Source of the DNA: Neocallimastix lanati (nom. inval.)
Taxonomy: Eukaryota; Neocallimastigomycota; Neocallimastigomycetes; Neocallimastigales; Neocallimastigaceae
Assembly (NCBI GenBank): GCA_016946835.1
Contig: JACVTC010000355.1
Span: forward strand, 1 to 39,614
DNA: 39,614 nucleotides
Direction: 5' to 3'
Under the pieces are notes generated by a model. That model was not told where the DNA came from. It saw only the letters and a program-made list of their open reading frames with translations, and ran no database searches. Of the stretch, positions 6,684-31,997 are shown piece after piece; positions within the stretch are counted from its first letter, which is position 1; every line of letters starts with the position of its first letter. Both the position numbers and the translations under genes were made by a program.

Positions 6684-7244
6684 TATAACAAAATATTATA
6701 ATAAATATAATAACACTCAAAAAAAACAAAAATTATTTTATTTTTTATTTATTTTCTTTCTTTTATTATAATTATTTTATTAATTATATTTATTATAATA
6801 CTATAAGCCGCAAGGGTTGATATAGTATTAATATTAAAAAAAGTTTTATTAAAAAATTAAGTTTTATTAACTAAACAAAATTAAAATAAAAAACACAAAG
6901 AAAAGAATATTTGTTAATAAGAATTTTACTCATATTTATATTTTTTTCAAAAGTTAAAGTTATTAAAAAATAAAAATAAAAGTTTCTAAAAAGTTCTTAA
7001 AAATCGAAAAATTTAGAAAAAATAGAAAACAATAGAATTAAGAATTTAATAGAATAAATTTTAATTAATTAAACACAAGAATTATCAAGAAATTCTAGTA
7101 ATTTCTTGAACTATAAAGAATCTTCTAGATATTTTTTAGAATAAAACTATAAAATAATAATAAATGTGAATCGAACCCTAAGTAGTTTGATTCATGGTAT
7201 TAGTTACTAACAACTATACCAGAAATAATATTTTTTAAATTTAA
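6684..7244 (-). repeat. Chr-1 5' LTR, first part (interrupted by Cys-1)
   Basis: Direct repeat of 457-1017. It is broken after 7244 by the Cys-1 insertion and resumes at 16458. The last four bases TTAA (7241-7244) are the Cys-1 target-site duplication. Confidence 0.9.
7168..7221 (-). promoter_or_regulatory. tRNA-like Pol III module in Chr-1 5' LTR
   Basis: Same module as at 942-995: box A at 7221-7211, box B at 7176-7168 on the minus strand, 45 nt apart. The Cys-1 target-site duplication lies 20-23 bp upstream of box A, where a Pol III start site would be expected. Confidence 0.7.
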
Positions 7245-7863
7245 TGATGCATGTCCAATAAAAATAATAGAAAATAATAGAAAAATTATTTAGAAAAATT
7301 ATTAATATAAATATTTATTAAAAATTTATTTTATATAATGAATCTTAAAATATATTATTAATATATTATTAAAGATAATTTATTATTATTAATTATTAAA
7401 ATATTAAATTAAATAATAATATTAAAAAATATTAAAAGAATTGTTGATAATATAGTAAAATTAGTTATATTAATTATAACGGAGATTGAATGTTTAATTA
7501 AATTGATGTTAATATTAAAATAATTTTTAAATAATGTTAAACAATATGAATTAATAGTTATAAGTAAAAAGTTATGAATATTTATATTTATTAATTAATT
7601 TTAGTGTTTCGATAAATAAAATTTATAAAATTAGTAAAAAATATAATTATGAAAATAATTTATAAATAAATATTTTCTTTTTTTTTAAGGAATAATAATA
7701 AAACATGTATTTTTTTTTTTATGATAAAATATAATAAATAAAATAATAAAAGATAAATAAATAAAAAGTAAATATAATTATTGTAATATAATATTCTTGG
7801 AGTAATTCCCTTTTGCACAAACGCCCAACTAACATATACGGTATTTAATAAAATATCGTATCA
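7245..7863 (+). repeat. Cys-1 5' LTR
   Basis: A 619-bp repeat starting TGATGCATGTCC. It ends in an imperfect 11-bp hairpin (ATACGGTATTT/AAATATCGTAT) finishing in TCA. It is paired with 15836-16453. Confidence 0.95.
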
Positions 7864-7904
7864 AAAATGGTGGAGAATCCGGGCGTGCAAACCAAGAATA
7901 TTAT
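7788..7904 (+). promoter_or_regulatory. Cys-1 primer-binding site and U5-leader stem
   Basis: TGGTGGAGAATCCGGG at 7868-7883, four bases after the LTR, is the complement of a tRNA 3' end (reading CCCGG, a 7-nt acceptor strand, then ACCA). I cannot name the tRNA. The site is bracketed by long complementarity: ATAATATTCTTGG (7788-7800) pairs with CCAAGAATATTAT (7892-7904), TTTGCA (7812-7817) with TGCAAA (7886-7891), and CGCCC (7822-7826) with GGGCG (7881-7885). That is 24 base pairs with bulges only on the U5 side. Retroviral U5-leader stems are comparable. Confidence 0.75.
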
Positions 7905-8075
7905 GAAATTTATATTTATATTGATATTTACTTTTTAAAAAATAAAGACAATTAAATAATTAATATTAAATTAAAATTAAATAATTAATTTTTTTATAAT
8001 ATTAATATATAAATTTATATAAAAAAAAAAAAAAAAAAAAAAACGCCTAAAATTATTATGATTATTATTAAATAA

Positions 8076-8233
8076 TAATTAAAGGTAACTGGGAGTTCGA
8101 ACCAGAATAAAAACGAATAAGTCTTTAATTATTATTATTAGTATAGTTAATTTTTTTTTTATTATCATCTTTATTAGTAATTAAAGACAACTGGGAATTC
8201 GGACCAGTATAAAAACGAATAAACCTTTAATTA
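8076..8233 (+). other. Duplicated two-tier hairpin in Cys-1 leader
   Basis: Two copies (8076-8131 and 8178-8233) each have a perfect outer stem TAATTAAAG/CTTTAATTA, an inner stem CTGG/CCAG, and the 3' strand ATAAAAACGAATAA. Differences between copies fall mainly in the inner loop (GAGTTCGAA versus GAATTCGGA), while both stems are retained. This suggests an RNA element such as a packaging or translation signal; its role is unknown. Confidence 0.65.
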
Positions 8234-8319
8234 AGAAATGATATTATAATAAAAAGTAGTAATAGTTTAATATAAAAATTAATATTAAATAATATTTTAT
8301 TAATAGTATATGTGATAAT

Positions 8320-8715
8320 ATTTAGAAAAAAAAATAATAGATAATATTTTAATAATAATAATAAATAATATTTTAGTAATGGTGAATTAAGTAATAATTA
8401 ATAATAATAAATGATATTTTAGTAATAGTGAATTAAGTAATAATTAATAATAATAAATAATATTTTAGTAATAGTGAATTAAGTAATAATTAATAATAAT
8501 AAATAATATTTTAGTAATAGTAATATTTTAGTAATAGTGTATAAAATAAGAATTAATAATAATAATAATAATAATTAAATGATATTTTAGTAATAGTGAA
8601 TTAAGTAATAATTAATAATAATAAATAATATTTTAGTAATAGTGAATTAATAATTAATAATAATAAATAATATTTTAATAATAGTAATATTTTAGTAATA
8701 GTATATAAAATAAGA

Positions 8716-8759
<44 letters not shown>

Positions 8760-8760
8760 T
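8320..8760 (+). repeat. 46-bp minisatellite and AAT microsatellite
   Basis: A unit of about 46 bp (AATGATATTTTAGTAATAGT then GAATTAAGTAATAATTAATA) is repeated five or more times. A longer variant is interspersed, and the array ends in (AAT)n. Confidence 0.85.
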
Positions 8761-8845
8761 AATAATAACAATAATAAAAATAATATTATTATACTCGTAA
8801 AAGTATATAAGAATATAATTTCAAATTAAAATAATAATTAGATAA

Positions 8846-10150
8846 ATGGCGGACGCTTCGAAAATTAGAAGAGACTTACCATACTTAGCAAATTATGGTA
8901 AGGACATAGATTCTTGGATAGAAGATTTCAAAAATGTTATGGAAATTTACAACATTGAGGAACCAAACAGAATTTTTATTTGGGTAAAGAACGCAGTAGA
9001 GGCTGACATAAAAAACCTTTTAAAATCTTTATGTACTACAAGAAATAATGTTAAAAGGTTTCCCTCATATAAAGAAATCCAGAGAGCCATTGAAGATTAT
9101 TTAGAAATTACTCAAAATGATAAGTGTTCAATTTTAAAGGCCTTAAAAATAAAAAGAAATGAAACAATTAAAGGATTTAATTATAATTATTTAACTCTTT
9201 ATCATCGACTTGACTTGGAATATAAAAAATTAATATGTGTCGATGATTATTTAAATGCTATACATGATAGGGTATATGTACATTCTCAAGTAATTTTGGC
9301 CAACTGTAAAACATTAACAGAAGCGTTCGAAGTAGCAGAACGTGCAGAAAAAGCTGAAGTACGAACTATAACAAACAAAAATTCTCAGAATGTTATGGTA
9401 TATCAAAACAACATAAATAAAAATAATAACAATTTATTAAATCATCCAATTTATAGGAGCTTAAGAGAACATGGAAATAATTTAGATAATTCATATCAAG
9501 CGTCATCATATGTTATGGGTTATATAAATGAAAACTCCACCAATAATAGAATGTTTACACCAGGTAGATATAGTAACTATAAAAATAAAAGTTTTAATAA
9601 TAATAATAATTATTATCACGGAGTAGAACAAATTCAACAAAATAATACTTATGATACAAGAAGATTCTATAATAACTACGAACCAAAAGCTAGAAAATCA
9701 GTTATGTGTTACTCATGTAAACAAGTAGGACATAAAGCTTATGAATGTCCTAATAATAAAAATAATGGTAGTAATAGAAATAATAATCTTTATAATGTGA
9801 ATAATAATGATATGGGTAATAATTATAATAATAATTTTGATTATAATAATAATAGTAATAAATATAACAATTATTATAATAATAGTAATAAAAATGGCTA
9901 CAATAATTCTTTTAATGGTAGTAATTATTACTTTAATAAAAATAATAAATTTACTGGAAATAATATTGCTAATAGAAATAATAATAATTTTAATGAGAAT
10001 AATATTCCCACTGGAAATAATAATTTTAATAGAAATTCTAATGGAATAAATCAGGATATTAATACTACTAGTTCAAATATTAATAGTAATTTCAAAGCTA
10101 ATGTAAATAATAATAATAATAATGGAGATAGCTTTAATAATTTAAACTAA
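8846..10150 (+). CDS. Cys-1 Gag (capsid and nucleocapsid)
   Basis: This 434-residue structural protein is predicted to assemble the virus-like particle and bind the genomic RNA. Residues 1 to about 170 form the capsid-like region, similar to Cys-2 Gag (for example DIDSWIEDF against DIDSWCEEF, and AERAEKAE against AERAEEIG). A CCHC zinc knuckle CYSCKQVGHKAYECP sits near residues 288-301. The C-terminal 130 residues are almost entirely Asn with Asn-coding AAT runs, an expansion absent from Cys-2. The ORF ends at TAA, immediately after the slippery heptamer TTTAAAC. The start at 8846 is the first ATG after the leader and matches the Cys-2 N-terminus in register. Confidence 0.93.
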   Translation: MADASKIRRDLPYLANYGKDIDSWIEDFKNVMEIYNIEEPNRIFIWVKNAVEADIKNLLKSLCTTRNNVKRFPSYKEIQRAIEDYLEITQNDKCSILKALKIKRNETIKGFNYNYLTLYHRLDLEYKKLICVDDYLNAIHDRVYVHSQVILANCKTLTEAFEVAERAEKAEVRTITNKNSQNVMVYQNNINKNNNNLLNHPIYRSLREHGNNLDNSYQASSYVMGYINENSTNNRMFTPGRYSNYKNKSFNNNNNYYHGVEQIQQNNTYDTRRFYNNYEPKARKSVMCYSCKQVGHKAYECPNNKNNGSNRNNNLYNVNNNDMGNNYNNNFDYNNNSNKYNNYYNNSNKNGYNNSFNGSNYYFNKNNKFTGNNIANRNNNNFNENNIPTGNNNFNRNSNGINQDINTTSSNINSNFKANVNNNNNNGDSFNNLN

Positions 10151-10173
10151 ATAATGGGAGAAGGACAACTCCC
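10141..10173 (+). promoter_or_regulatory. Cys-1 -1 ribosomal frameshift signal
   Basis: TTTAAAC (10141-10147) is phased T TTA AAC in the Gag frame, and the next codon is the Gag stop TAA. After an 8-nt spacer a hairpin GGGAG (10156-10160)/CTCCC (10169-10173) follows. The -1 frame is open from here through 11565 and begins with residues conserved in Cys-2 (GRR-TP-NQTK). UUUAAAC is a well-known -1 slippery site. Cys-2 has the same heptamer, spacer and stem. Confidence 0.88.
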
Positions 10174-11565
10174 GTTAACCAAACCAAACTTCAAACTTAT
10201 AATAAAAATAATAGTATTAATGAAGAATATGTAAATTTAACATACTCTCCCAAGTTAAATAATAATACTATGAAAATAAAAAATAATTATAATAATACTA
10301 ATGATAATAATTTACATAATAATAATAATAATAATAACTTACATAATAATAATAATAATAATAATAATTCATATAATGCTAGTGCAACTTCAAATAATGA
10401 TGTAATAAATAATGGATATCCTTATAATGATAATTCACATAATTATGATATAAACAATAATTATTTAAATAAGAATAATAAAATAAATTATACAAACAGT
10501 TTATTTGATGATAATCATACAAGTATTGATAATATTTATTCCAATAATAATAATAATAATAACTTAAATAATATAGAATATCTTAGTAAGAATACTAGTA
10601 ACGGTTATAAATTAAATAATAGTAATCATAACAACATCTATGAAAATGACACTATTAATAAACAAGTTAACAATGATGTTAATATAAATAATACTTATAA
10701 AAATAATAATGATGATCAAAGTAACAATGAAATTGATTTAAATAGAATTTCTATAAATGATAATGAAAAGAAAATTAATAATGAACCTAATTCAAATAAT
10801 ATTTATAATAATTTTGATAATTACCATAATGAGGAAATTATCGCTGTTGCCCAAAAGAAAGGTAAAAATAATTCAATAAAAATCTCCCCATATACCAAAG
10901 AAATAAAGAAAAAGCTTATAGATAATCCAGTTCCAATTATTACAAATGCTATGAAGAAAAATACTATTATGAAAAGAAAATTAAACGTTAATAAATTAGC
11001 AACTACAGGAACACCTGATATGATAATAGATGAGGGAGGAACGAATGTCAAACTATCAACAGAAAAAGAAGAAGGTAAAGAATTTAAAGAAAATAAAGAT
11101 CATAAAAATGTTACTTTCAATGAATCTATTGAAATTTTTGAGGATTCACAACCACCAACTAATCAAACAATAACTAATAATAATACAAATAAATTAGAAT
11201 ATTTGGATCTTTCTTATATCAATCAACCAAATATTAGAAATGTAAAAAAAGCGAATAAATTGAATAAAATAAATGAAATACTGAGCAGTAACAAAGATGA
11301 TATACCCATCAATGTTAAAAGTTATTCCAAGCCAGAGAAACACATAAAAATGATGGAAGATTTTAATGAATTTAAAATTAAGGACTTTATCAAGGAAGTA
11401 GCATCAACCGAAGTCATAACGAAGTTAGTATATTTGTTAGACCTGTTTCCAAAGTTCAGGTCAGAATTTACAAAAGCATTAAAATTAACCGAAGGAAAAG
11501 AGAAAATAAAGAAAAATTTGAATACATCTTTTAATAAATGTAATGACAATTATAAGCCAACATAA
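10141..11565 (+). CDS. Cys-1 Gag-Pol linker region (read by -1 frameshift)
   Basis: This is the -1 frame downstream of Gag. An ATG occurs at 10270, but the frame is open from the slippery site, so I treat it as a frameshift extension of Gag. The first 200 residues are low-complexity Asn-rich. The last 120 (from about IDEGGTNVKL) contain IKDFIKEVASTEVITKLVYLL and LFPKFRSEFTKALKL, which match the segment before protease in Cys-2 (LLDVSPKLRADFIKALKL). In Cys-2 the equivalent region is continuous with Pol, but here it stops at 11563-11565, overlapping the Pol ORF by 23 nt in the +1 frame. Its function beyond a linker is unknown. Confidence 0.8.
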   Translation, partial: FKLNNGRRTTPVNQTKLQTYNKNNSINEEYVNLTYSPKLNNNTMKIKNNYNNTNDNNLHNNNNNNNLHNNNNNNNNSYNASATSNNDVINNGYPYNDNSHNYDINNNYLNKNNKINYTNSLFDDNHTSIDNIYSNNNNNNNLNNIEYLSKNTSNGYKLNNSNHNNIYENDTINKQVNNDVNINNTYKNNNDDQSNNEIDLNRISINDNEKKINNEPNSNNIYNNFDNYHNEEIIAVAQKKGKNNSIKISPYTKEIKKKLIDNPVPIITNAMKKNTIMKRKLNVNKLATTGTPDMIIDEGGTNVKLSTEKEEGKEFKENKDHKNVTFNESIEIFEDSQPPTNQTITNNNTNKLEYLDLSYINQPNIRNVKKANKLNKINEILSSNKDDIPINVKSYSKPEKHIKMMEDFNEFKIKDFIKEVASTEVITKLVYLLDLFPKFRSEFTKALKLTEGKEKIKKNLNTSFNKCNDNYKPT

Positions 11566-14500
11566 AGTGATTAAAGTTAAAGGCACTGTGGATAAGAAAC
11601 CAGCTGAAATTTTCTTGGACTCGTGTGCTAGCGTTAATTTGATTACCACTACGGCTTTAAAAAAATTTAAAATTAATAAAAATCCTATTGGGAGAATATC
11701 CGAAAAAATTTTTCAGGTATATTCCAACAATTCAACTTGTTCAGATATTTATGAACTAAAAATATCTATTGGAAATTACACTTTTATCGATTACTTTAGG
11801 AAAATTGATAAGGATGATATCTTTGATATATTAATAGGTATTGACACACTTAAACGAAATAGATTTGATATAAATTTAGTTAATGATACCTTATATCATA
11901 TTGATGAAAATAATAATCCTATAGAATTAGCTTCTTTATTTTATGATGTTAGCTTGAGTCCTTCTGAAAGTACAAATAGAATTAATGACGAAGAAAATAA
12001 TATGAATAAGGAGAATAATATAAATAATAATTCTTCTGAAGAGAATGATGAGGATTCTGAAACTAGTTGGAGTGACAATGATAATAATAATGATAATAAT
12101 AATATACTTTTTACATATGCTAAATCAGAGTTACCTAATATTAACATAAATAATTTTAATGTAAAATTACCTTTCTTTAATAGTGTCGACATCGATAAAG
12201 AAAATAATATCAAAATAAAAACGAATAATAATAAGAATGATGATAAAATTGACAATTATAAAATAAATGATCATAAAATTAATTCTAAAGTTACAAACAA
12301 TATAAATCCCATACTACATTCTAAACTTCCATCAAAAATCGATTCTGATCAAAACGGCAATAACAAATTAAATAGTAATTATAAATTAGTAGATAGAAAT
12401 ATTGAAAGGAAAGAATATAAGAATAAAACGGTTGATATTACAACACAATTGATTCCATCTCTTTTATTAATAACTAATGAAGTACTACATAATGAAAACG
12501 AGGTTTGCACAGACGACACAATATCTAAACTGGAAATGATTCACTCTATTGTAAAAAAATTACCAGAAAATTTGAAAGCTGATGTAGAAAAATTATTTTT
12601 AAATTATATTAGTGTTCTTGCACTGAAAACTGACGATTTGGGTTCGTCAAAGCTATATCCTCATAGAATTAATTTAATACCAGGAACAACACCTATTAAA
12701 CAGAGGGCCTACCGTATTTCAAAAGTGCAAGCTGATGCACTTAAAAAGGAATTAATTAAACTTATAAATAATAACTTAATTGTCCCTTCTAGTTCTCCTT
12801 GGTCTTCTCCTGTAGTACTGGTACCGAAAAAGAATGGTCAAGTGAGAATGTGTGTTGACTACAGGAAGATTAATAATTGTACATTAAAGGACGCTTATGC
12901 ACTTCCTTTAATAGATGATATACTTTACTATGTTAGCGGTGATATTTCTATTTTGTCTACTATTGATCTCTTCTCAGGGTACCATCAGATTCCTATGCAT
13001 TCTGATGATAAAGATATCACTTGCTTTACGACCATTTACGGAAACTTTAATTTTGAAGTTATGCCTTTTGGACTATGCAACGCTCCCGCTACTTTTCAAA
13101 GGGAGATGAACAGAATATTTTTTGATTTAATCGGAGTATGTGTTTTTATTTACATAGATGACTTAGTTATTTATTCTCCTTCATTAGATCAACACATCAA
13201 AGACCTAGAAAAAGTATTCCTCATTCTTGCTAATAATGGATTAAAAGTGAATTTTGAAAAATGTGATTTCTTTAAAGAAGAAGTTGAGCTCCTTGGTCAT
13301 ACTCTTTCTACTAAGGGTATAAAACCTATGAATTCTAAAATAAAAGTTATTGCTAATTGGTTACCTCCTTCTAATTTAAAACAGTTACGTTCTTTCTTAG
13401 GGGCAATTGGATATTACCGGAAATTCATTAGCCATTTTGCCCAAATTGCTAAACCTTTATATGATTTAACAAAAAAGAATGTTCCTTTTGTTTGGTCTAC
13501 CGAATCTAATAATGCATTTGAATTTTTAAAAATTCGTCTTATTAATGCACCTATATTGTCACCTCCAAATTTTGATAAACCATTTATTGTTCGTTCAGAT
13601 GCATCTAAATCAGGAATTGGCGGGGTACTACTTCAGTTAGACGATGACAACATTGAGAAGCCATTATATTATGAAAGTAGGACACTTTCCAATTCTGAAA
13701 TCAATTATAGCATTACAGAACTTGAGGGGCTTGCCGCATTTTACTGTGTCATGAAATTTAAACCTTTTCTCACTGGTAATAGTTTTGAGACAATTCTTTA
13801 TACCGATCATAAGCCTTTAGTTTACATATTTAAAAATAAAGAACCTTCTTCAGCAAGGCATGTCAAATGGATAACTGAGTTAAGTATTTTAAAAATTAAA
13901 GTGTTATATGAAGAGGGGAGGAGGAATGTAGTTGCTGATGCACTATCTAGATTACATTCTAACAATGAAAAATATATAATCAAAAATATAAAAAATGATG
14001 ATAAACATATAAAAAATAAAAATAAAAGAAATAATATAAAAAATTATAATAAAGATGTATTCAACCAAGTTATAAATAATGAAATTCAAAATTGTGAAAT
14101 TAAAAATAATGAAGAAATTAGAAATAAGAAAAATACTAAAATTAATAAAATAAAAGAGTTAGTGGATGAAATTAAGATCAATAGTAATAATGAAAATTAC
14201 AAAATGGAATATGAGGAAATTAAAAATAATGTAAATAACATTAATAAGTTTAATAATAAATTACATAATAATAATAGTGAAAATAATGGAGTGAAAAATA
14301 AATTGAATGTGAATTATATGGTATTTCAAACTGAAGAAAATAATAAACATAGTTTTAATAATAATGATAATAATAATAATAATATTAATCATGTTAATAC
14401 TAATAATAATGATATTGATGATAGTACTGAAATACTAAATGATTTCTATAAAAAAATAATAAACCAGAAATTTGTATTAATTGATGGAGTTCAGTATTAT

Positions 14501-15614
14501 AAAGATAATAATGAATTAAGAAAAGTAATATTTAATGATAATGAAAAATGGGAACTTATTAGTAAAGCTCATTGTTTAGGACATGAAGGTAACTTTAAAA
14601 CCTACCATCGTTTGAAAAGGAACTATTATTGGATAGGAATGAATAAGGATATCAGATTATTTATTAAATCTTGTCATGTATGTCAATTATGTAAACCACA
14701 ACCACCGAATGTATTTACAGAAGATTTAGCTACACCCCCAGGTCTACCTTTTACTCGGGTAGGATTGGATTTAGTTGGACCCTTATACGAATCTTTCAGA
14801 GGTAATAAATATATAATAGTACTTGTAGATTATTTAACAAAATGGGTGGAAGCTGAAGCATTAGCCAAAACAGAATCAGAAGATGTCATTAGATTTTTAA
14901 ATAATATATTTTCAAGACACGGGATTCCAGAGATATTAATTACTGATAATGGCCCGCAATTCATATCTGATAAAACAAAAGCTTTCCTAGATTTAAATGA
15001 TGTCTATGTACATTATATTAGTACTTATCATCCTGCTTCTAACGGAGAAGTTGAAAACAGGAATAGAGAAATAGTCAAATATATTAGAATTCTTAAAAGC
15101 CAATTTAAAGAATTAAGTAAACAAAATCAAGAATGGGATGATATTTTACCTAGTGCACTTTGGGCTTTAAGAACAACAAAAAATGAAGTTACTAAATTTA
15201 GTAGTTTCGAATTACTCTATGGTAGGAAAGACTTACAACCATTTGAATTAGCAATTAATATTGACAAAAGATTTCCTGAAGAATCAGAAGAAGAATATTT
15301 TGTTCGAAAATTTATTAATCACCATAATTGGATTTCTGAAGCAATCAAAAATATTGAAACTGCAAATGAATTATGGAAAGATAGGAGAAGACAGATTAAA
15401 AGATTAAGAAGTGAATTCAAACCAGGAGACCTAGTTTTAGTTAGAAATTTCAATCGAAGGAAACTAGACCCTTATTATATCGGACCATTAAAAATAGTTA
15501 AACAGCAATTTAATACTGTCACAGTATGTGATCCTTATACGAACGAAATTGCAGAGAGAAACATTCATCTAAAAAATGTAATTCCATATATTAGTAATTT
15601 CCTAAATTATAATC

Positions 15615-15619
<5 letters not shown>
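11543..15619 (+). CDS. Cys-1 Pol polyprotein (protease, RT, RNase H, integrase)
   Basis: The 1358-residue ORF starts right before protease: FLDSCASVNLI (Asp26) has Cys where retropepsins have Gly. RT has VDYRKIN, TIDLFSGYHQIP and YIDD near residue 536. RNase H has SDAS (about 685) and YTDHKPL. An Asn/Lys-rich insert of roughly 160 residues (13960-14450) separates RNase H from integrase and is missing in Cys-2. Integrase has the HHCC finger (HCLGHEG to CHVCQLC, about 1010-1052), then LDLVGP, TDNGPQF and NGEVENR for D,D,E, then the GPY-type module YYIGPLKIVKQQFNTV. No chromodomain follows. The frame is +1 relative to the linker ORF, so expression needs a second recoding event, reinitiation at the 11543 ATG, or the copy is mutated. 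The TAA runs into a 51-nt poly(A). Confidence 0.93.
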
Positions 15620-15670
<51 letters not shown>

Positions 15671-15835
15671 ATGATATATATATAAAAAAAAAAATTTTGA
15701 TATATATAAAAAATATAAAAAAAAAAATATATAAAAAAAATATTATAAAATATATAATAGTATTATTAGTTTAATAAATATTTTAATATGCTTATAGACT
15801 TCAAGGGACGAAGTCTAAGCTAAGTGGGGGCATCT
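15618..15835 (+). promoter_or_regulatory. Cys-1 3' untranslated region: poly(A), hairpin and PPT
   Basis: A-tract at 15618-15668, AT-rich spacer, then a hairpin TAGACTTC/GAAGTCTA (stem arms within 15795-15817, loop AAGGGAC) and the purine stretch AAGTGGGGG directly before the LTR. Cys-2 has the same hairpin and the same GGGG-containing tract. Confidence 0.8.
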
Positions 15836-16453
15836 TGATGCATGTCCAGTAAAAATAATAGAAAATAATAGAAAAATTATTTAGAAAAATTATTAATATA
15901 AATATTTATTAAAAATTTATTTTATATAATGAATCTTAAAATATATTATTAATATATTATTAAAGATAATTTATTATTATTAATTATTAAAATATTAAAT
16001 TAAATAATAATATTAAAAAATATTAAAAGAATTGTTGATAATATAGTAAAATTAGTTATATTAATTATAACGGAGATTGAATGTTTAATTAAATTGATGT
16101 TAATATTAAAATAATTTTTAAATAATGTTAAACAATATGAATTAATAGTTATAAGTAAAAAGTTATGAATATTTATATTTATTAATTAATTTTAGTGTTT
16201 CGATAAATAAAATTTATAAAATTAGTAAAAAATATAATTATGAAAATAATTTATAAATAAATATTTTCTTTTTTTTTAAGGAATAATAATAAAACATGTA
16301 TTTTTTTTTTATGATAAAATATAATAAATAAAATAATAAAAGATAAATAAATAAAAAGTAAATATAATTATTGTAATATAATATTCTTGGAGTAATTCCC
16401 TTTTGCACAAACGCCCAACTAACATATACGGTATTTAATAAAATATCGTATCA
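15836..16453 (+). repeat. Cys-1 3' LTR
   Basis: A 618-bp copy of 7245-7863 ending GTATCA. It is followed by the TTAA target duplication. Confidence 0.95.
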
Positions 16454-16457
16454 TTAA

Positions 16458-17936: not shown

Positions 17937-17986
<50 letters not shown>

Positions 17987-22721: not shown

Positions 22722-22754
22722 GTCGCTCAGGGGCTCGACTTAAACAGAGGGGCA
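22719..22754 (+). promoter_or_regulatory. Chr-2 pre-PPT hairpin and polypurine tract
   Basis: Stem TAAGTCG (22719-22725) / CGACTTA (22736-22742) with a 10-nt loop containing AGGGG, then AACAGAGGGGCA directly before the LTR. The Gag-Pol stop codon TAA is the first three bases of the stem. Confidence 0.8.
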
Positions 22755-23721
22755 TGTAAAATATTTAATAATTTGAATACGTATTTAAATGTAATGTAAT
22801 GTAAATTATTGTGGATAAAAATGTTTTCCAAATTTTTAATATAAATTTAAATGTATTCCAAATTATTAATTTAAATAATTTTCTCAAAAATTTATGACTA
22901 AATTATTTGGAGAATTTACGTAACAATTACTCAGTTGAATCACGAAACTTCATAAATTAAAAAATAATTAGTCATTAATTAGTTAAATTAAAATAATTAA
23001 AGGAATATTGCCTTTTCCGTTTGTTTACAAAAACTTGCCGTTTTGTTTACTTGTCTTTTAAATTATAGAAATTCTAAAAATAAAAATAGCAAGTTGTGGT
23101 TTAGTAAATTGGTTTTCACAACTTGGCAAAATTTAAATTAAATATATGGATAGAATATATTTAATCATATAATTAATGAATTAAACTCTAAATTTTCTTC
23201 ATAGAAAATTTTAGAAAAATTAGATAGTTTTAAATAGGATTTATATTAAAATAATTCATAACATTTCATGTAATTTATTATATAATGTAATTGATAATAT
23301 AAAATAATATGTTTATATAATTTATTAAAATTTATTTTGATTTAAAACTTTATTTTGAAAAAGTATAAAAAGAGTTAATTTTTCAACTATTGAACGATAG
23401 TTGGAAAATCGTATAGAATAGGAAAATTTAAATTTTATTATTAGTTTCGTAACTATTATTAGAATAGTTACTTTCTTATAAAACAATTATATTATAGTTT
23501 GTAAAACCTTAACTGCTAGTGGGAACTCCGGAAAGGACCCTGCGTTACCCAGTTAAGTGGTTGTTGAAAATTAGTTAATAAATAAAATAAATAAATAAAA
23601 GAAATTAAAAAAAAGAAAATAATTAATTAAATAATAGAGGTTTAAGATATAGTGTTATTAGTGTAGTAAAGTTAGTTTAGAATAGCCACAAACCTAGACT
23701 TGATAAGTATTTTATTTTACA
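22755..23721 (+). repeat. Chr-2 3' LTR
   Basis: 967-bp copy of 16890-17856. It is followed by GTGTA, the target duplication, and then the remaining Chr-3 LTR. Confidence 0.95.
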
Positions 23722-23726
23722 GTGTA

Positions 23727-23740
23727 ACGAATCCTAAAGT
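23727..23740 (+). repeat. Chr-3 5' LTR, middle piece (nt 5-18)
   Basis: ACGAATCCTAAAGT equals nucleotides 5-18 of the intact 3' LTR at 36032-36045. It lies between Chr-2 and Cys-2. Its last four bases AAGT are duplicated at 31491-31494. Confidence 0.93.
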
Positions 23741-24611
23741 TGGTACAGAACTGAAGAATTTTTATCATAAAATAATATATTCTAATAATTAAAGAAAATT
23801 TTAAATTCTATTCTATTATTCTAATCTATTATTCTAATTTAAAAATCTAAATACTAAACAATTTAAACTAAAATAAATTATTCAAAATTAAGATAACCTA
23901 ATATAAATAATTTAACTAACAACTATAATTATTAAAACTATTAACCAAACACTAAAAACCTTTAAACACTTAATACAAAACTTAAATTATTTTTAATTCT
24001 AACTTTATTTAAAATAAACTATTTTATTTTTATTATTTAATCTATTCTAACTTTATTATTTAAACTATACTAATTTATTATTTAAACTATTTAAATTTAA
24101 TTATTTAAACTAATTTTATTTTAATTTAACTATCTAAATTTATCATTTAAACTCGAAAATATCAAAAGAATAATATAATAATAAAGTTGTAAGAAAAAGA
24201 GAGAGAACTAAAGTATTGTACTACTTTGTTCTTTTTATACATTTAGAATAGTTATTTGATTGGATTAGAATAAAAATTTAATAATAAAAATTTAATAATA
24301 AAAATTTAATAATAAAAATATAATAATAAAAATTTAATAATAAAAATTTAATAATAAAAATTTAATAATAAAAATTTAATAATAAAAATTTAATAATAAA
24401 ATATAATAATAAAATATAATAAACTATTAAAATATTATTAAGTATTACAATATTAAATAAAGATAATAATTAATACATTTTCTAATTTATTATAACTAAA
24501 TTTATAATTATTTTAATATTTTAACATTAATTATTTAATTCCACTAATATTAATAATTTTTAATCTTTAATAATTATATATAATTTTAATTATTTTATTT
24601 GTTCCGTAACA
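23741..24611 (-). repeat. Cys-2 3' LTR
   Basis: 871-bp LTR. It contains about ten copies of a 14-bp repeat (AAAAATTTAATAAT) near 24270-24400 and a sense TATA-like TATAAAAAG near 24235. Confidence 0.95.
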
Positions 24612-24651
24612 TAATGCCACCCCTAAGCTCAGACTTCGTCCCCTGAAGTCT
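24612..24651 (-). promoter_or_regulatory. Cys-2 pre-PPT hairpin and polypurine tract
   Basis: Stem AGACTTC (24631-24637) / GAAGTCT (24645-24651), loop of 7 nt. The sense purine-rich tract TTAGGGGTGGCA follows up to the LTR. The hairpin contains the last codons and stop of Pol, yet Cys-1 has it in untranslated sequence, so it is conserved as nucleic acid rather than as protein. Confidence 0.8.
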
Positions 24652-27600
24652 CGATTTCGCATAATTGATATGGAACAATATTTTTTAAGTGAACATTTCT
24701 ATCGGCAATTTCGTTTGTTACTGGATCACAAAGTGTTACTGTGTTGAATTGTTTCTTAACGATTTTCATAGGGCCTAGAAAGAAAGGATCAAGTTTTCTT
24801 CTATTTATACACTTAATCATTACTAAATCTCCGGATTTATATTCAGCTTTAAGTCTTTTCATCTGTTTTCTTCTGTCTTCCCATATTTTATTGGCAGTTT
24901 GAATATTATTGATTGCTTCCTTTATCCATTTATAATGGGTTGTAAATCTTCTTATTAAAAATTCTTCATTACTTTCGAAATCTTCTTTTTTGTCTAAGTT
25001 CAATACTAATTCGAATGGCTGGAGATCACGTCTACCATATAATAATTCGAAACTAGAAAATTTCGTTGTTTCATTTTTACTTGTACGCAACGCCCATAAA
25101 GCACTTGGTAATATTTCATCCCACTGAGAAGTATTTTTATTACAAAGAAGTCTTAAATATTTCCCAATTTCTTTGTTGCGGTTTTCGACTTCTCCATTTG
25201 ATTCTGGATGATAGGTTGCTATAAAATGAACATAAACACCATATAAGTCGAGGAATGCTTTTGTTTTATCGGAATTAAACTGGGGTCCATTGTCTGTTAC
25301 AATTATTTCAGGAATACCGTGACGAGAAAAAACTTTGGATAAAAATCTTATAACATCATCAGATTCTATGTATTTAGTTGGCTCTGCTTCTACCCATTTT
25401 GTTAAGTAATCTACTAAAACAATTATATATTTATTTCCATTTTTTGTTGTGGGTAATGGGCCTATAATATCTAGACCAACTCTTGTGAATGGTAAACCTG
25501 GTTTTGTTGCTATATCTTCAGTTTGATAATTAAATGACTGAGGTCTAAAAAGCTGACATCTTTTGCAAGTTCTAACTATGTATTTCACATCCAATATCAT
25601 ATTGGTCCAATAATAATCTCTTTTAAGTCGATTATAAGTTTTAAATACTCCTTCGTGACCAATTTTATGAGCACTAAGTATAAGTTTAATTCTTTCTTTT
25701 TCATTATAAATAACTTTTCTTAATTTTCCATCATCCTTAAAAAATTTTTCACCATTAATGATTACAAATTTATCTTTAAAGCTTGATAAAAGATTATTTT
25801 CGTTCATTTCAGAAGTTATTGTTGCAACTAATTCATCATTTTTCGTTTTTAACCTTGATAATGCATCAGCGATAACATTTTTCTTTCCTGGTTCGTATAA
25901 AACTTTAACATTAAGCATTGATAAAAGTAAGACCCATCTTGTTTGTCTTGAATTGTTTGTTTCTTTATTTTTAAATAATCCTACTAAAGGTTTGTGATCC
26001 GTGTAAAGAAGCGTCGTATATTTGTTTCCAGAAATATATGATTTAAATTTTTTAACGCAGTAAGTCGCGGCTGTTCCTTCCAGATCCGTAATTGCATAAT
26101 TTCTTTCCGCCGGTTTTAAAGAGCGACTTACGAAGTGAATTGGTTTTTCATTGTTATTTTCATCCTTTTGAAGTAATACGCCACCTATTCCGTCATAGGA
26201 AGCATCAGTTCTAATAATAAATTGTTTTTCGAAATCGGGCATAGTAAGTATTGGAGTTGAAACTAGTTTATTTTTTAATTCATTGAAACTTTCTTCTTGT
26301 TCATTTTCCCAAATAAATTTAACTCCCTTTTTTAAAAGTTTGAATAATGGTTTTGCAATATTCGCAAAGTTGAATATAAATTTACGATAGTATCCAACTG
26401 CACCGAGAAATGATTGTAATTGTGTGATATTTTTGGGAGGTATCCATTCTAAAATAACTTTTATTTTATCTTGAATTGGAGAAATACCATTAATCGACAA
26501 TGTATGTCCTAATAGTTCTACTTTTTCTTTAAAGAAATTACATTTTTCTAAGTTAATCTTTAATCCATTTTCTTTTATAATTTCAAATACTTTTTTAAGA
26601 TCTTCAACATGTTGTTCTAAGGAAGGAGAGAATATTACTAAGTCATCAATATAAACAAACATACATACACCAATAAGAGGGAAAAATATTCTGTTCATTT
26701 CTCTTTGGAAGGTACCTGGAGCATTACACAATCCAAAAGGCATAACTAAAAATTGATAATTACCGTACATTGTCGTGAAACTTGTTTTTGGAATATCTTC
26801 TTTATTCATGGGTATTTGGTGGAATCCAGAAAATAGGTCAATTGTTGTGAATATTTTTACTTGTTTACCAATAGAAAATAAAATTTCATCGATAAGAGGT
26901 AGCGCATAAGCGTCCTTGATTGTAACGTTATTCAATTTTCGGAAGTCAATACATAATCTCCATTTTTTATTTTTCTTGAGAACTAGGATAACCGGAGAAG
27001 ACCAAGGAGAGTTCGAGGGTTCGATTAATTTGTTTTTAATAAGTTTTTCTAACTCCTTTTTAAGTGCTATAGCCTGAACTTTTGAAAGTCTATAACATTT
27101 TTGTTTTATTGGTTTAGTATTCATTTCAAGTTGAATGTTATGTGGAAGTAACTTGGTTGGTTTTAACTCATCAATTTTAGTAGCAAGAATAGAATAGAAT
27201 TCATTAAAGATTTCTTTTATTTTATTTTTAAACTTATTCGGTACTCCATTAATTATTACTTCTATCATTCTATCCTTTTCGTTAATTTCTTCATTAAATT
27301 GTTTTTTTATTTTTTTATTTCCTGTTTCAAGATTTGAATTTTTTGTATTTATTGGTTCTTTTAGTATCGTATTATTTTTCTTACTATTATCTTCCTTTAT
27401 AAAGCAATATAAATAAGAATTATTATTAATATCAGAGTTTGTTTCATCATATATTATTATAGATTCAGCATCATCATCATTATTATTAATAATATTTCCA
27501 TTATTGCCTTTACCAAGTTTTATAATATATTCCCAAGAATCATCTTCTTTCATTAAACATAGATTATTGTTAAGAGGATTGATGAATAAATTGTTTTCTT

Positions 27601-28534
27601 TAAGTGTTCTGTAGCCAATTAATATATCAAACAAATTTTGATCATTATCAATGACTCTGAAAATATCATGTATAACTAATTTTCCAATTTTAATATTTAG
27701 TAAATAAATTTCAGTGTAAACGTTTTCTTTTGATAATACTTGTACAATGTTGTTCTTAACAAATCCTATAGGTTTAATTTTATTCAATTTATTTAGGAAG
27801 TTTTTTGTGATAATGTTGATACTGGCACATGTATCTAAAAATGCTAAACCTTTAATATCATTAATAAAACATTCAACAGTTGCTACATCTTCTCTATGCA
27901 TGGCAGACAGTACGATTTCTTCAGGTGATTCATTAAGAGTTTCAGGACTTTTGAGTTTTAATGCCTTAATAAAATCTGCACGAAGTTTTGGACTAACATC
28001 TAATAATTGTGGAACTGTAATATTAGCAAATTTTGAGCTTATATCCTTACAAATGTCATACTTTGGTTGTCCTTCCATAATTGTGATTTGCTTATTAAAA
28101 TTAGAGTCTTTAACTTTCTTTTCAGCTAACTCGATACTTGGAAGTTTAGCTTTTTCTTTGTGTTTATTCGTTTCTTTATTATTAATGTTTAAAATTTCAT
28201 TTTCTCTTTGTTTTCTTGCGTTCTTTTTTGCTTTATTAATTGATGGTTGACTTATTACAGAAACATCAATTTGGTTAAGTTTTTCTGTTTCATTTGGATA
28301 TATTTTGTCGATTGAAACTGCATCATCTTCGATTTCGATATTCTCATTGTTAGTTTTTGTATTAGAATCAATTTGATTATTTTGATTAATTGTATTATTT
28401 TCTTTATTTTTCCTTTTGTTTTTTCCATATGGTTTTTCAATTAATAAATTTGTTTTTTTTCTAATAGCAGTAGCTACAATTTCTTCTTTGGTTTGATTAG
28501 TGGGAGTTTCCCTTCTCCCTTTTAGAAGTTTAAA
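24629..28534 (-). CDS. Cys-2 Pol (read by -1 frameshift from Gag)
   Basis: The frame is open from the slippery site (28534) to the stop at 24629. An internal ATG at 28078 (MEGQPKYDICKD) is not needed. The first ~150 residues are a Lys/Asn/Glu-rich linker, followed by LLDVSPKLRADFIKALKL. The protease motif AFLDTCASINII (Asp codon near 27835) again has Cys for Gly. RT has CIDFRKLNN, TIDLFSGFHQIP and YIDD (near 26650). RNase H has RTDASYDGIGG and YTDHKPL. Integrase has the HHCC finger (HKIGHEG to CKRCQLF), LDIIGPL, TDNGPQF and NGEVENR, then FFLGPMKIVKKQFNTV. There is no chromodomain. All catalytic positions are present and I see no stop. It is co-expressed with Gag at a reduced ratio by the frameshift signal. 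Confidence 0.94.
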   Translation of the reverse strand, partial: FKLLKGRRETPTNQTKEEIVATAIRKKTNLLIEKPYGKNKRKNKENNTINQNNQIDSNTKTNNENIEIEDDAVSIDKIYPNETEKLNQIDVSVISQPSINKAKKNARKQRENEILNINNKETNKHKEKAKLPSIELAEKKVKDSNFNKQITIMEGQPKYDICKDISSKFANITVPQLLDVSPKLRADFIKALKLKSPETLNESPEEIVLSAMHREDVATVECFINDIKGLAFLDTCASINIITKNFLNKLNKIKPIGFVKNNIVQVLSKENVYTEIYLLNIKIGKLVIHDIFRVIDNDQNLFDILIGYRTLKENNLFINPLNNNLCLMKEDDSWEYIIKLGKGNNGNIINNNDDDAESIIIYDETNSDINNNSYLYCFIKEDNSKKNNTILKEPINTKNSNLETGNKKIKKQFNEEINEKDRMIEVIINGVPNKFKNKIKEIFNEFYSILATKIDELKPTKLLPHNIQLEMNTKPIKQKCYRLSKVQAIALKKELEKLIKNKLIEPSNSPWSSPVILVLKKNKKWRLCIDFRKLNNVTIKDAYALPLIDEILFSIGKQVKIFTTIDLFSGFHQIPMNKEDIPKTSFTTMYGNYQFLVMPFGLCNAPGTFQREMNRIFFPLIGVCMFVYIDDLVIFSPSLEQHVEDLKKVFEIIKENGLKINLEKCNFFKEKVELLGHTLSINGISPIQDKIKVILEWIPPKNITQLQSFLGAVGYYRKFIFNFANIAKPLFKLLKKGVKFIWENEQEESFNELKNKLVSTPILTMPDFEKQFIIRTDASYDGIGGVLLQKDENNNEKPIHFVSRSLKPAERNYAITDLEGTAATYCVKKFKSYISGNKYTTLLYTDHKPLVGLFKNKETNNSRQTRWVLLLSMLNVKVLYEPGKKNVIADALSRLKTKNDELVATITSEMNENNLLSSFKDKFVIINGEKFFKDDGKLRKVIYNEKERIKLILSAHKIGHEGVFKTYNRLKRDYYWTNMILDVKYIVRTCKRCQLFRPQSFNYQTEDIATKPGLPFTRVGLDIIGPLPTTKNGNKYIIVLVDYLTKWVEAEPTKYIESDDVIRFLSKVFSRHGIPEIIVTDNGPQFNSDKTKAFLDLYGVYVHFIATYHPESNGEVENRNKEIGKYLRLLCNKNTSQWDEILPSALWALRTSKNETTKFSSFELLYGRRDLQPFELVLNLDKKEDFESNEEFLIRRFTTHYKWIKEAINNIQTANKIWEDRRKQMKRLKAEYKSGDLVMIKCINRRKLDPFFLGPMKIVKKQFNTVTLCDPVTNEIADRNVHLKNIVPYQLCEIETSGDEV
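28502..28534 (-). promoter_or_regulatory. Cys-2 -1 ribosomal frameshift signal
   Basis: In sense orientation TTTAAAC (28534-28528), phased T TTA AAC, is followed by TTC TAA (the Gag stop). After 8 nt comes a hairpin GGGAG/CTCCC (28519-28515 and 28506-28502) with loop AAGGGAAA. The -1 frame leads directly into Pol. Heptamer, spacer length and stem are identical to Cys-1. Confidence 0.92.
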
Positions 28535-29577
28535 TGATCGTTAGAAGAGCCTTGATTTTGATTTTCGAATTCAGCAAGTTGTTTGAAAGAATATGGACAA
28601 TGTTTATAGTAATGTCCTTGTTGTCCACAACGATAGCATGTAATCGGTGATTTTTTGGTAATAATTTTCTTTCTATTCTGGTTAGTTTCATTATTCGTAA
28701 ATTCATTATTAAGTCTTGTATCATCGAAATTTTGCTTAATATTCACTAGATTATTTTTTTGCTCGTATTCTTCTTGATTATAAGTTCTTTTATTATTGGC
28801 AATCTTTGGATTACTAAAACCATGCTGGAATTCATTAAATTCATTATAATTTTGATAATTTGGTTGATTCCTTTTATTGTATGAGTTGTATAATTGCTTT
28901 CTACTATAATTTTGATTGTGATTTTGGTTATAACTTTGATTATAATTCTTATTATAAATCGAAGAATTAAATTGTTTGAAAGGATGAACATTATTTCTGT
29001 AATAAAATGGTTGGGAATTAAAAACTGTTGTCATTACTGCTTCATTAGCGGCATCTCCAATTTCTTCGGCTCTTTCTGCCAATTCAGCTTCTTCGAATGC
29101 ATCTTCTAAGTCGAAACATCGTTGGGTTATGACTTGAGATCTAGCATAAGGTCGATAGATTATTGAATCTGCGTAGTCTTCAACAGTAATAAATGTTTGG
29201 TAAATTTTCGGTAGATTATTATAAATTTTCTTGTATCTCCAATTAAAGTTCTTTATACTTTCTCCTCTTCTAATTTTCATTCTTTGTAACCTTTTACATT
29301 TCTCTTGGGGTGTTATCTCAAGTTCATTTTCTATTGCTTTTTTGATTTCTTCAATAGAAGGGTAGATATCATTTTCTTCTTCGTTCTTGGTATGTAATTC
29401 TTGTAAAGTCCCTTTTAACTTTCCATCGACACATTCGATAGCCCATGTGAGTATATTTTTTGGATTATTTATATCTGCTAGAGACATAATTCTTGTAAAT
29501 TCTTCGCACCAAGAATCTATATCTCTTGCGTTTTCGTTGAGTCTTGGTAGAATTCTTTGTAGTTCTAATATTTTCAT
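28522..29577 (-). CDS. Cys-2 Gag (capsid and nucleocapsid)
   Basis: A 351-residue structural protein of the virus-like particle. The N-terminal capsid region (about 1-180) is homologous to Cys-1 Gag: RDIDSWCEEF, KIRRGESIKNF and AELAERAEE have counterparts there. A Tyr/Asn/Gln-rich middle (190-300) follows, then one CCHC knuckle CYRCGQQGHYYKHCP (about 314-327), then the C-terminus GSSNDHLNF. It overlaps Pol at the frameshift site. It is shorter than Cys-1 Gag because it lacks the long Asn tail. The start is the first ATG after the leader. Confidence 0.93.
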   Translation of the reverse strand: MKILELQRILPRLNENARDIDSWCEEFTRIMSLADINNPKNILTWAIECVDGKLKGTLQELHTKNEEENDIYPSIEEIKKAIENELEITPQEKCKRLQRMKIRRGESIKNFNWRYKKIYNNLPKIYQTFITVEDYADSIIYRPYARSQVITQRCFDLEDAFEEAELAERAEEIGDAANEAVMTTVFNSQPFYYRNNVHPFKQFNSSIYNKNYNQSYNQNHNQNYSRKQLYNSYNKRNQPNYQNYNEFNEFQHGFSNPKIANNKRTYNQEEYEQKNNLVNIKQNFDDTRLNNEFTNNETNQNRKKIITKKSPITCYRCGQQGHYYKHCPYSFKQLAEFENQNQGSSNDHLNF

Positions 29578-30489
29578 TTTGGAATTTTATTTGAAATTAT
29601 TAATTGATGTATGAATGGATGGGTTTTCTTTTTGATTATAAATTTTATTATCACTTCCTAATTTATTTCTTAATTTGATGGATGGATTAATGAAATTTTA
29701 TTTTATTTCTAATTTTATTATCGCTTGTTATATTATTTCTTAATTGATGGATTGATGAATGAAATTTTAATTTAATTATTAATTTTATTGTCACTTTTTT
29801 ATTTAAGTTGATGGATGGATGTGTTGAGTATAATTTTTCAATTCTCTATTTGAATTAAATATTGAACTAATTGAATTTAAAAATAATTGTTATTGGATTG
29901 AAATATTGTTTATTGAAATTTTCCACTGAATTTTATTAATGACAACTTTATTTTATATTCATATAATAATTCTAAAAAAAAACCTTATAACTTCGGTGAA
30001 ATAAGTTCATTATTCGCCAGTGCTCGATCTTGTCCGGAAACCCTGCCAACACTCGAATAGTTAACAAACTACGGAGATGTGTCGTGGGGAGTATAAATTT
30101 ATATTACTCCGGGACGGAAAACCGCACTCACAAAATCGACTAAAAACCTTAATTAATAACAAATTGGAATCACCCTAATTCGTTATTAATTAATTTCCTT
30201 ACGGTTTACACACTGTATATGAATTATTATATTTTTTGGTTTTGTTATCTTCTTTGAGTTAAAATAATAAATTAATATTAAATTACTATTAATTATTATA
30301 ATTATTATTTTTTTTTTTCTAACTCTAATTTTATTAAAATTTTTATATTATTTACTTATATTTTATTTTATTTATTTTATTTTATTTTATTTTATTTTTT
30401 TTTTTTTCTAATTAAAATTTTATACTATTTCCTAATTAACTAATTAATTATTTATTTTTTATTTATTATTATTTTTATTCTATCAATTA

Positions 30490-30522
<33 letters not shown>

Positions 30523-30592
30523 CTATTTCTAAACTTTATTAATTAATAAAATTTTTCTAAAATTATTATTTTCATATTATTTTATTTCTTCA
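29578..30592 (-). other. Cys-2 5' leader (untranslated)
   Basis: No ORF of note. The leader has imperfect repeats with GATGGATG-type and TTTTATTATC-type words near 29600-29830, a GC-richer structured block at 29985-30190 sharing motifs with Chr-1, and a 29-nt tract that is poly(A) in sense (T on plus, 30494-30522). Confidence 0.75.
29991..30060 (-). other. Conserved leader block shared with Chr-1
   Basis: Plus-strand words CTTCGGTGA (29991-29999), GTTCATTATTCGCCAGTGCT (30005-30024) and TCGAATAG (30053-30060) parallel 5843-5887 in Chr-1. In sense the CACCGAAG loop is closed by CTTAT/ATAAG. It lies about 410-480 nt upstream of the Gag ATG, a distance similar to that in Chr-1. Confidence 0.6.
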
Positions 30593-30657
30593 GGTCCTGC
30601 ATAGCTCGCCAAATCTTTATGGTACAGAACTGAAGAATTTTTATCATAAAATAATAT
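30574..30657 (-). promoter_or_regulatory. Cys-2 primer-binding site and U5-leader stem
   Basis: In sense, TGGCGAGCTATGCAGGACC (30611-30593), 8 nt after the LTR, complements a tRNA 3' end (CCTGC, 7-nt acceptor strand, G, CCA). The tRNA is not identified. It is bracketed by two paired arms: ATAAAATAATAT (plus 30646-30657) with ATATTATTTTAT (30574-30585), and CTGAAGAA (30630-30637) with TTCTTCAG (30586-30593). That gives 20 bp with an 8-nt bulge on the U5 side, the same plan as Cys-1. Confidence 0.75.
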
Positions 30658-31490
30658 ATTCTAATAATTAAAGAAAATTTTAAATTCTATTCTATTATTC
30701 TAATCTATTATTCTAATTTAAAAATCTAAATACTAAACAATTTAAACTAAAATAAATTATTCAAAATTAAGATAACCTAATATAAATAATTTAACTAACA
30801 ACTATAATTATTAAAACTATTAACCAAACACTAAAAACCTTTAAACACTTAATACAAAACTTAAATTATTTTTAATTCTAACTTTATTTAAAATAAACTA
30901 TTTTATTTTTATTATTTAATCTATTCTAACTTTATTATTTAAACTATACTAATTTATTATTTAAACTATTTAAATTTAATTATTTAAACTAATTTTATTT
31001 TAATTTAACTATCTAAATTTATCATTTAAACTCGAAAATATCAAAAGAATAATATAATAATAAAGTTGTAAGAAAAAGAGAGAGAACTAAAGTATTGTAC
31101 TACTTTGTTCTTTTTATACATTTAGAATAGTTATTTGATTGGATTAGAATAAAAATTTAATAATAAAAATTTAATAATAAAAATTTAATAATAAAAATAT
31201 AATAATAAAAATTTAATAATAAAAATTTAATAATAAAAATTTAATAATAAAAATTTAATAATAAAAATTTAATAATAAAATATAATAATAAAATATAATA
31301 AACTATTAAAATATTATTAAGTATTACAATATTAAATAAAGATAATAATTAATACATTTTCTAATTTATTATAACTAAATTTATAATTATTTTAATATTT
31401 TAACATTAATTATTTAATTCCACTAATATTAATAATTTTTAATCTTTAATAATTATATATAATTTTAATTATTTTATTTGTTCCGTAACA
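30620..31490 (-). repeat. Cys-2 5' LTR
   Basis: 871-bp copy of 23741-24611. It includes the 14-bp repeat array near 31148-31280. It is followed by AAGT and the resumed Chr-3 LTR. Confidence 0.95.
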
Positions 31491-31494
31491 AAGT

Positions 31495-31997
31495 TAGTAA
31501 AATTGTTGTTGTAGTCTGGTGGTAATACACCATGACAATGAAGCCGAATTTCTTAGGTTCGACTCACACCCTTTCCCAATCTAAATTATTTTTAGTTAAT
31601 TAATTAAATTATTGTAGAAAGTTCTAGAGTTTCTTTGGTTAATATTATATAACTAAATGAAACTAGAAAGTTCTATTTTAATAATTATTTTATCATTTTT
31701 CTATAAGATTCATTTTCTAGAAAGAAAACTTAATTTTTTCGAACTTTCGTTAATCTTAACTTTTTCCGAAACTGTTTTTCCGAAAAAGTATAAATAAGCG
31801 TGAATTTCTCAATAAAAAATAATTTTTCTTTGTGCTTTTATTAACTAGTTAAAAGTAATTCGAAATATTACAATAACTAATTAATAATAAAAAAATAATA
31901 ATAAATTTTATATTTTAATAAAAAATATTAATAAAACAAATTTTTTAAGAAAACGAATTACTTATTAGTGTAGACCTATTGAGTGTAAATCGTTACA
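31495..31997 (+). repeat. Chr-3 5' LTR, main piece (nt 19 to end)
   Basis: Matches 36046-36549 with two substitutions and one A-run difference by eye. It holds the tRNA-like module, TATAAATA at 31789-31796 and the self-primer site at 31827-31841. It ends TCGTTACA. Confidence 0.95.
31512..31565 (+). promoter_or_regulatory. tRNA-like Pol III module in Chr-3 5' LTR
   Basis: Box A TAGTCTGGTGG at 31512-31522 (10 of 11 consensus positions) and box B GTTCGACTC at 31557-31565 (full match) start 45 nt apart. A D-arm-like hairpin TGGTG/CACCA (31517-31521 and 31528-31532) overlaps box A. The words ACCATGA and TTAGGTTCGACTCACA parallel the Chr-1 module, so both probably share an origin. T-arm and acceptor stems do not form, so it is not a tRNA gene. 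The same module is at 36063-36116. Confidence 0.7.

Follow-up and report, generated by a model that had tools for sequence, protein, structure and literature searches.

Why two members of a nest of mobile elements should each have entered another element at nearly the same place is the question raised by the stretch of DNA analysed here, a 39,614-nt sequence from Neocallimastix lanati (contig JACVTC010000355.1, positions 1 to 39,614; hereafter the window). The whole window is a nest of long terminal repeat (LTR) retrotransposons, in which the Ty3/Gypsy elements Cys-1 and Cys-2 lie within LTRs of the elements Chr-1 and Chr-3, just upstream of a tRNA-like module composed of a box A and a box B. 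Our answer, drawn from sequence comparisons across the genome, is that Cys-1, Cys-2 and other LTR families very probably integrate in the manner of Ty3 at the expected start of RNA polymerase III (Pol III) transcription, and that the modules in the Chr LTRs serve as targets in the same way as tRNA genes.

Cys-1 splits the 5' LTR of Chr-1, which lies on the minus strand. Box A of the Chr-1 module (TGGTATAGTTG, minus strand) starts at position 7221, and the Cys-1 target duplication occupies -20 to -23 relative to it, leaving 23 nt between element and box A. Cys-2 splits the 5' LTR of Chr-3, where box A (TAGTCTGGTGG, plus strand) starts at 31512; the duplication here lies at -18 to -21, with 21 nt between. 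The 5' LTR adjoins the module in both cases and transcription runs away from it. A further element, Chr-2, is inserted right where the Chr-3 LTR starts, with its duplication at about -32 to -36 from box A. A first-pass annotation had given these three distances and the divergent geometry of both Cys elements, and both proved correct when re-read in the sequence; it had also proposed that the Cys lineage targets Pol III complexes, that Chr-type LTRs act as landing pads, and that the resulting self-nesting arrays spare real tRNA genes.

The genome searched comprises 199 Mb in 762 contigs. The start of the Cys-1 LTR occurs at 160 places within 3 mismatches, and patterns favouring 5' junctions yielded 75 places for Cys-1 (41 + 34) and 30 for Cys-2, from which 63 distinct junctions were read after merging identical flanks (39 Cys-1, 24 Cys-2). 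Among the 61 5' flanks of at least 100 bp (the short flanks L014 and L052 were left out), 21 carry a box B on the outward strand 60-79 nt out, whereas 500 letter shuffles averaged 0.1 such flanks and never exceeded 2; box B was also matched three times at 140-259 nt and once, at 60-79 nt, on the inward strand. ARAGORN placed a tRNA gene on the outward strand at 13 of the 63 junctions, and in all 13 the gene begins after 12-16 nt, so that box A, taken to start at tRNA base 8, lies 19-23 nt away. This is the near-fixed position upstream of tRNA genes that characterizes Ty3-type elements, and it agrees with the peak at about -20 called for at first. Where both sides could be read, solo and full copies are bounded by 4-bp duplications of varied sequence (TTAA, TTTT, TATT, TTTG, TCGC, ACTG, GGTG, ATTT).

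Inspected by eye, the 62 evaluable junctions (L052 is too short to class) comprise 13 at tRNA genes, nine at tRNA-like modules or remnants, and 40 next to an apparent LTR terminus. Two of the nine are Chr-1 modules, two Chr-3 modules, two belong to a third module type and one to a fourth; of the two others, one is degenerate and one is half a tRNA-Met without box B. The proposed sparing of real tRNA genes has to be given up: they are the commonest of the recognisable single targets (13 versus nine modules or remnants), and their coding part alone is spared by Cys insertions. The loci retrieved contain 24 distinct tRNA contexts, and in 18 of them an LTR end stands 12-16 bp before the tRNA (the query LTR in 12, another in six), a proportion that reflects loci selected for Cys insertions and is not a genome rate; five of the remainder are tRNA-Cys genes directly behind another tRNA, and one (L055, an uncertain tRNA) has no clear LTR end. 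Other Pol III genes were considered as targets at the non-tRNA flanks and rejected, since Rfam, searched up to E 1 at 20 chosen loci of 135, found no 5S, U6, 7SL or RNase P RNA behind them and most such flanks resemble LTR termini.

Two observations concern the tRNA genes themselves. At five loci (L008, L023, L024, L058 and L091) a tRNA-Ser is followed after roughly 12-16 bp by a tRNA-Cys, with the LTR end upstream of the first gene only, which suggests that each pair is one transcription unit. Contig C555 (170732-399007) holds many high-scoring tRNA copies, some about 540 bp apart (329729-333608) and resembling a tandem array, as seen among 63 candidates scored genome-wide of 9278 at first look.

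In the four module types box A and box B lie 43-44 nt apart, and a TTTT follows 23-33 nt after the start of box B. The modules are mutually homologous (alignment z 6-8), whereas the 58 bp after them align with z of -0.4 to 1.9, the exception being Chr-3 versus the fourth type (5.1). RNA of the Chr-1 module folds better than its shuffles (z -3.4). The third and fourth types likely also sit in LTRs, to judge from resemblance. As the first-pass annotation had required, the modules are conserved: within 3 mismatches that of Chr-1 has 144 copies, of which at least 100 agree in all 57 nt, and that of Chr-3 has 64.

The Chr-3 copies record how often this site has been used. The 46-mer downstream of the module is intact in 62 of 64 copies and the one upstream in 24 of 64 (Fisher p 9e-14). 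Of the 40 upstream sides that are not intact, three were already known as interruptions and the other 37 were read: 35 stop abruptly at what seems to be the end of a foreign LTR, while L123 is intact but for an indel and L127 has a deletion, and neither of these two is counted as a hit. In all, 38 of the 64 genomic pads are interrupted just upstream of box A (34 called by script, L119 and L134 by eye, and C290 and C115 from the Cys-2 junctions). With a caller that permitted 16-27 nt, the 34 called junctions lie 19, 20, 21, 22, 23 and 24 nt from box A in 2, 4, 14, 7, 5 and 2 cases, so that the sharp peak near -20 expected at the outset is found here as well as in the box B positions of the Cys flanks. 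These 34 junctions display 20 different 14-nt LTR ends, those of L130, L132 and L135 being less typical, and some of the ends also stand 12-16 bp before real tRNA genes (for example at L008, L023, L032, L058 and L091). The Chr-1 site was likewise hit at L004, independently of the Cys-1 of the window, and at L011, there in a 3' LTR. The same geometry as at tRNA genes is seen in both Chr-1 and Chr-3, which bears out their description as landing pads.

Several pad loci deserve separate mention. The Chr-3 copies L075 (C115:198622) and L117 (C116:2332) agree in module variant and in their LTR spacing of 6447 bp but differ in the LTR end found at the pad, as though a duplicated locus had been struck twice. 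At C334:2045776-2066776 four Chr-1 modules are spaced about 6981 bp in a tandem array of LTRs and interiors. L098 (C666:9180-9480) has a third-type module with Cys-1 upstream and other LTR-like sequence just behind box B; C666 had been a candidate for an additional Chr-1 hit and was discarded, as its flank carries the third module type.

Insertion is also polarized, both in the orientation of the incoming element and in the LTR that receives it. In the 31 usable Cys 3' flanks neither a tRNA gene nor a box B at 40-110 bp occurs (a 32nd row, a primer-binding site at L024, was set aside), as opposed to the 21 of 61 5' flanks with a box B (p 5e-5). To compare the two LTRs of one pad element, module pairs up to 26 kb apart were accepted, a limit that accommodates insertions in the 3' LTR. 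Among 14 Chr-3 pairs the 5' copy is struck and the 3' copy intact in ten, both are intact in three and both struck in one; among 36 Chr-1 pairs, drawn from 100 listed of the 144 places plus nine derived separately, the 5' copy alone is non-intact in ten, both are intact in 23 and both non-intact in three (14-18 kb apart). The reverse was seen in neither set, and the 3' hit at L011 falls outside the pair table. The raw sign test gives 2e-6 to 2e-5; some pairs are copies of one event, and grouping them leaves about 16 independent 5' cases versus one. Because the near-identical LTRs of a pair differ in hits, this bias and the orientation favour an assembled complex over the DNA sequence as the target. 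Occlusion of a 3' LTR by read-through transcription is a phenomenon of retroviruses, and we prefer a similar reason here: the 3' copy may be occluded by read-through from the 5' LTR.

The mechanism that we propose runs as follows. Chr-1 and Chr-3 LTRs, and two further module types that probably lie in LTRs as well, bear a homologous tRNA-derived box A/box B pair that no longer scores as a tRNA. TFIIIC would bind both boxes and TFIIIB would be set just upstream, as on a tRNA gene, the modules being putatively active in Pol III recruitment; an incoming integrase would dock on this complex, and position, orientation and 5' LTR bias all point to its recognition. Integration falls 12-16 bp before the first tRNA base, or 19-24 nt before box A, with the 5' LTR of Cys-1 or Cys-2 towards the gene. 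The module survives, and later elements could enter between it and the earlier insert, producing stacks. What the sequence shows directly is where and which way round the inserts lie, how varied their LTR ends are and how often the Chr-3 pads are occupied. The 40 LTR-neighbour junctions have this appearance: they begin about 3-8 bp from a TG resembling the end of another LTR, and in 31 of them the first nine letters of that end are found again at one or more of the other junctions, for the most part behind a different spacer. The self-nesting arrays proposed at first are borne out by these stacked LTRs.

The same 40 junctions could be taken to mean that the elements aim at LTR ends and that proximity to tRNA genes is secondary. 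We regard this as the least credible alternative, since hits at tRNA genes require no LTR, the Chr-1 hit keeps its 23 nt from box A though it lies about 100 bp inside the LTR, the Chr-3 hit lies about 11-16 bp inside, and the small offset of neighbouring LTRs is what one common site would produce. The integrases might instead read a DNA motif common to tRNA upstream regions and Chr LTRs, without any Pol III complex, and the hits in Chr-3 pads do fall in one AAAGT/GAGTTAG stretch, spread over six positions; however, no such stretch is common to tRNA upstream regions, the target duplications differ widely (TTAA and GGTG, for example), and near-identical 3' LTRs are hardly ever struck, which makes this very unlikely. 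Somewhat less remote, though still improbable, is that the occupied pads are copies of a few composite elements or duplicated loci and that occupancy is inflated. L001, L002 and L003 are one event, L099, L100 and L107 have a junction and pad variant in common, as do L102 and L108, and C285 and C290 resemble copies; yet there are the 20 different LTR ends, and by our grouping the 34 called junctions fall into about 28 classes that differ in end, offset or pad variant.

Targeting of Pol III start sites remains our preferred explanation, and a number of results weigh against it. The 40 LTR-neighbour junctions display only another LTR terminus, a tRNA gene follows the neighbouring LTR in only two of these loci (L032 and L091), and L072, L092, L093 and L096 are weakly assigned to the class. 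The 12 tRNA contexts of Cys-1 and Cys-2 stem from few tRNA clusters, some of them near-identical copies. Occupancy of Chr-1 is an upper bound, taken from the absence of the intact upstream segment in 34 of 100 listed identical modules (of 144). Rfam finds no tRNA at the module loci among the 20 searched, and RNA of the Chr-3 module has no folding advantage over shuffles (z -0.9); together with the Chr-1 fold score and the homology among types, this leads us to regard the module as tRNA-derived and promoter-like rather than as a tRNA gene.

The inclusion of Chr-2 in the pattern by the first-pass annotation is not borne out. None of 96 Chr-2 5' junctions lies within 150 bp of a box A among 100 listed of 144 Chr-1 modules and the 64 Chr-3 modules, in a comparison by position only and with a pattern that required a non-A before the LTR and so missed the Chr-2 junction of the window and similar ones. 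With the window site also outside 19-24 nt, we rejected Chr-2 as Pol III-targeted, and its insertion at the Chr-3 LTR is probably incidental.

Targeting of Pol III starts has been described for Ty3, Tj1, Yarrowia elements and DGLT-A (PMC5911963, PMC5006619). Ty3 of Saccharomyces cerevisiae integrates within a few bp of where Pol III starts on tRNA genes, and does so through TFIIIB (PMC5911963, PMC8632968). The Cys elements are likewise Ty3/Gypsy and lie a few bp from such starts; they differ in that their targets include modules in LTRs of other elements and that the 5' LTR of Cys-1 and Cys-2 faced the module in every sampled case, TFIIIB having a putative role here. DGLT-A of Dictyostelium, a Ty3/Gypsy element without chromodomain, inserts about 15 bp upstream of mature tRNAs, and a table note records later elements between the gene and an earlier one (PMC5006619). 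Cys elements also have no chromodomain hit and lie upstream of tRNAs, but they insert in one orientation, as the 3' and 5' flanks attest, and DGLT-A in either (PMC5911963); the passages seen on DGLT-A mention no pads in LTRs. TRE5-A of Dictyostelium uses A/B box pairs outside tRNA genes like tRNA genes; unlike Cys it is a non-LTR element inserting about 47 bp upstream, and its extra sites are on the rDNA element, not within another mobile element (PMC5391098). Cassandra, Helenus and Ajax (TRIMp3) have a tRNA- or 5S-derived box A/B or promoter part in their LTRs, and the accessible text of PMC10886601 does not mention its use as an insertion target. Chr-1 and Chr-3 share with TRIMp3 (Helenus) the tRNA-derived module in the LTR; TRIMp3 are short and non-autonomous, whereas Chr-1 and Chr-3 have gag-pol frames (1276 codons in Chr-1) and a module spacing of 4-7 kb (4.4-7.6 kb between paired modules).

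Apart from these papers, searches of the open-licence literature gave nothing on LTR-borne or nested Pol III targets, no match for gag-pol elements with heavily occupied pads in their LTRs, and nothing on such targeting in anaerobic fungi. Ty3-like targeting is thus known, and what did not turn up elsewhere and is apparently new are the heavily occupied pads. Tentatively, and with a little less than even confidence, we suggest that large gag-pol retrotransposons may keep working Pol III promoters in their LTRs, which would be movable landing sites for a guild of Pol III-targeting retrotransposons, and that the 5'/3' contrast may be a fossil record of promoter occlusion, only the 5' copy holding a Pol III complex. 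Pol III-targeted integration is usually presented as sparing the host; if the suggestion is true, some genome parasites live off others, the target itself is spread by mobile elements, safe sites become more numerous as transposon load rises, and the arrays are self-feeding. A/B-box modules occupied in vivo would also be revealed by the insertions, and, given the sharp contrast in hits between near-identical LTRs, sequence alone would suffice to test whether Pol III complexes assemble on transposons and are occluded there.

Features of the window, in order of position
Feature	Position	Strand	Basis or remark
Box A/box B module, intact Chr-1 3' LTR	939..995	-	exact pattern match; upstream side intact (C285:981-1044)
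Chr-1 gag-pol frame, 1276 codons	1616..5446	-	element with 5' LTR split by Cys-1
Box A/box B module, Chr-1 5' LTR, pad struck by Cys-1	7165..7221	-	pattern match
Cys-1 target duplication TTAA, 4 bp	7241..7244, second copy 16454-16457		read from sequence
Cys-1, Ty3/Gypsy, no chromodomain hit	7245..16453	+	repeat pairs and Pfam
Cys-1 LTRs	about 7245-7863 and 15836-16453		length 618
Chr-2 target duplication GTGTA	16885-16889 and 23722-23726		
Chr-2, chromodomain element	16890..23721	+	Pfam Chromo E 3e-8; at outer edge of Chr-3 LTR
Chr-3 5' LTR, first 18 bp, severed by Cys-2	23723..23740	+	equals 3' LTR start at 36028
Cys-2, Ty3/Gypsy, no chromodomain hit	23741..31490	-	repeat pairs and Pfam
Cys-2 LTRs	about 23741-24611 and 30620-31490		
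Cys-2 target duplication AAGT, 4 bp	31491..31494, second copy 23737-23740		read from sequence
Box A/box B module, Chr-3 5' LTR, pad struck by Cys-2	31512..31570	+	pattern match
Chr-3 chromodomain piece	35489..35629	+	Pfam Chromo (PF00385) E 5e-14
Box A/box B module, intact Chr-3 3' LTR	36063..36121	+	pattern match; upstream side intact

Between their LTR pairs, Cys-1 and Cys-2 have pol regions with the Pfam domains RVT_1, RT_RNaseH, Integrase_H2C2 and rve in Ty3/Gypsy order. Chr-2 and Chr-3 carry the chromodomain behind the integrase (PF00385) that defines chromoviruses; Pfam detected none in Chr-1, for which the long frame and two pieces were searched and whose 3' end is broken into frames. 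Among 120 relatives listed for the Cys-2 pol, a Neocallimastix californiae protein is 99% identical across one third of the query, and five entries of lower identity are labelled Orpsp1, which we take to mean Orpinomyces; by these relatives alone the source would probably be a Neocallimastix, an anaerobic gut fungus.

The leader of Cys-1 contains at 8080-8240 a segment with a box B-like stretch in two imperfect copies, and tandem repeats occur both there (46 bp unit, 8300-8775) and, with a longer unit, in the Chr-3 leader (32009-32462). An apparently Copia-like element, recognised by eye at 16740-16888 and 36559-39614, is split by Chr-3, and a GCTAG duplicated at 16881-16885 and 36550-36554 flanks the Chr-3 insertion in it.

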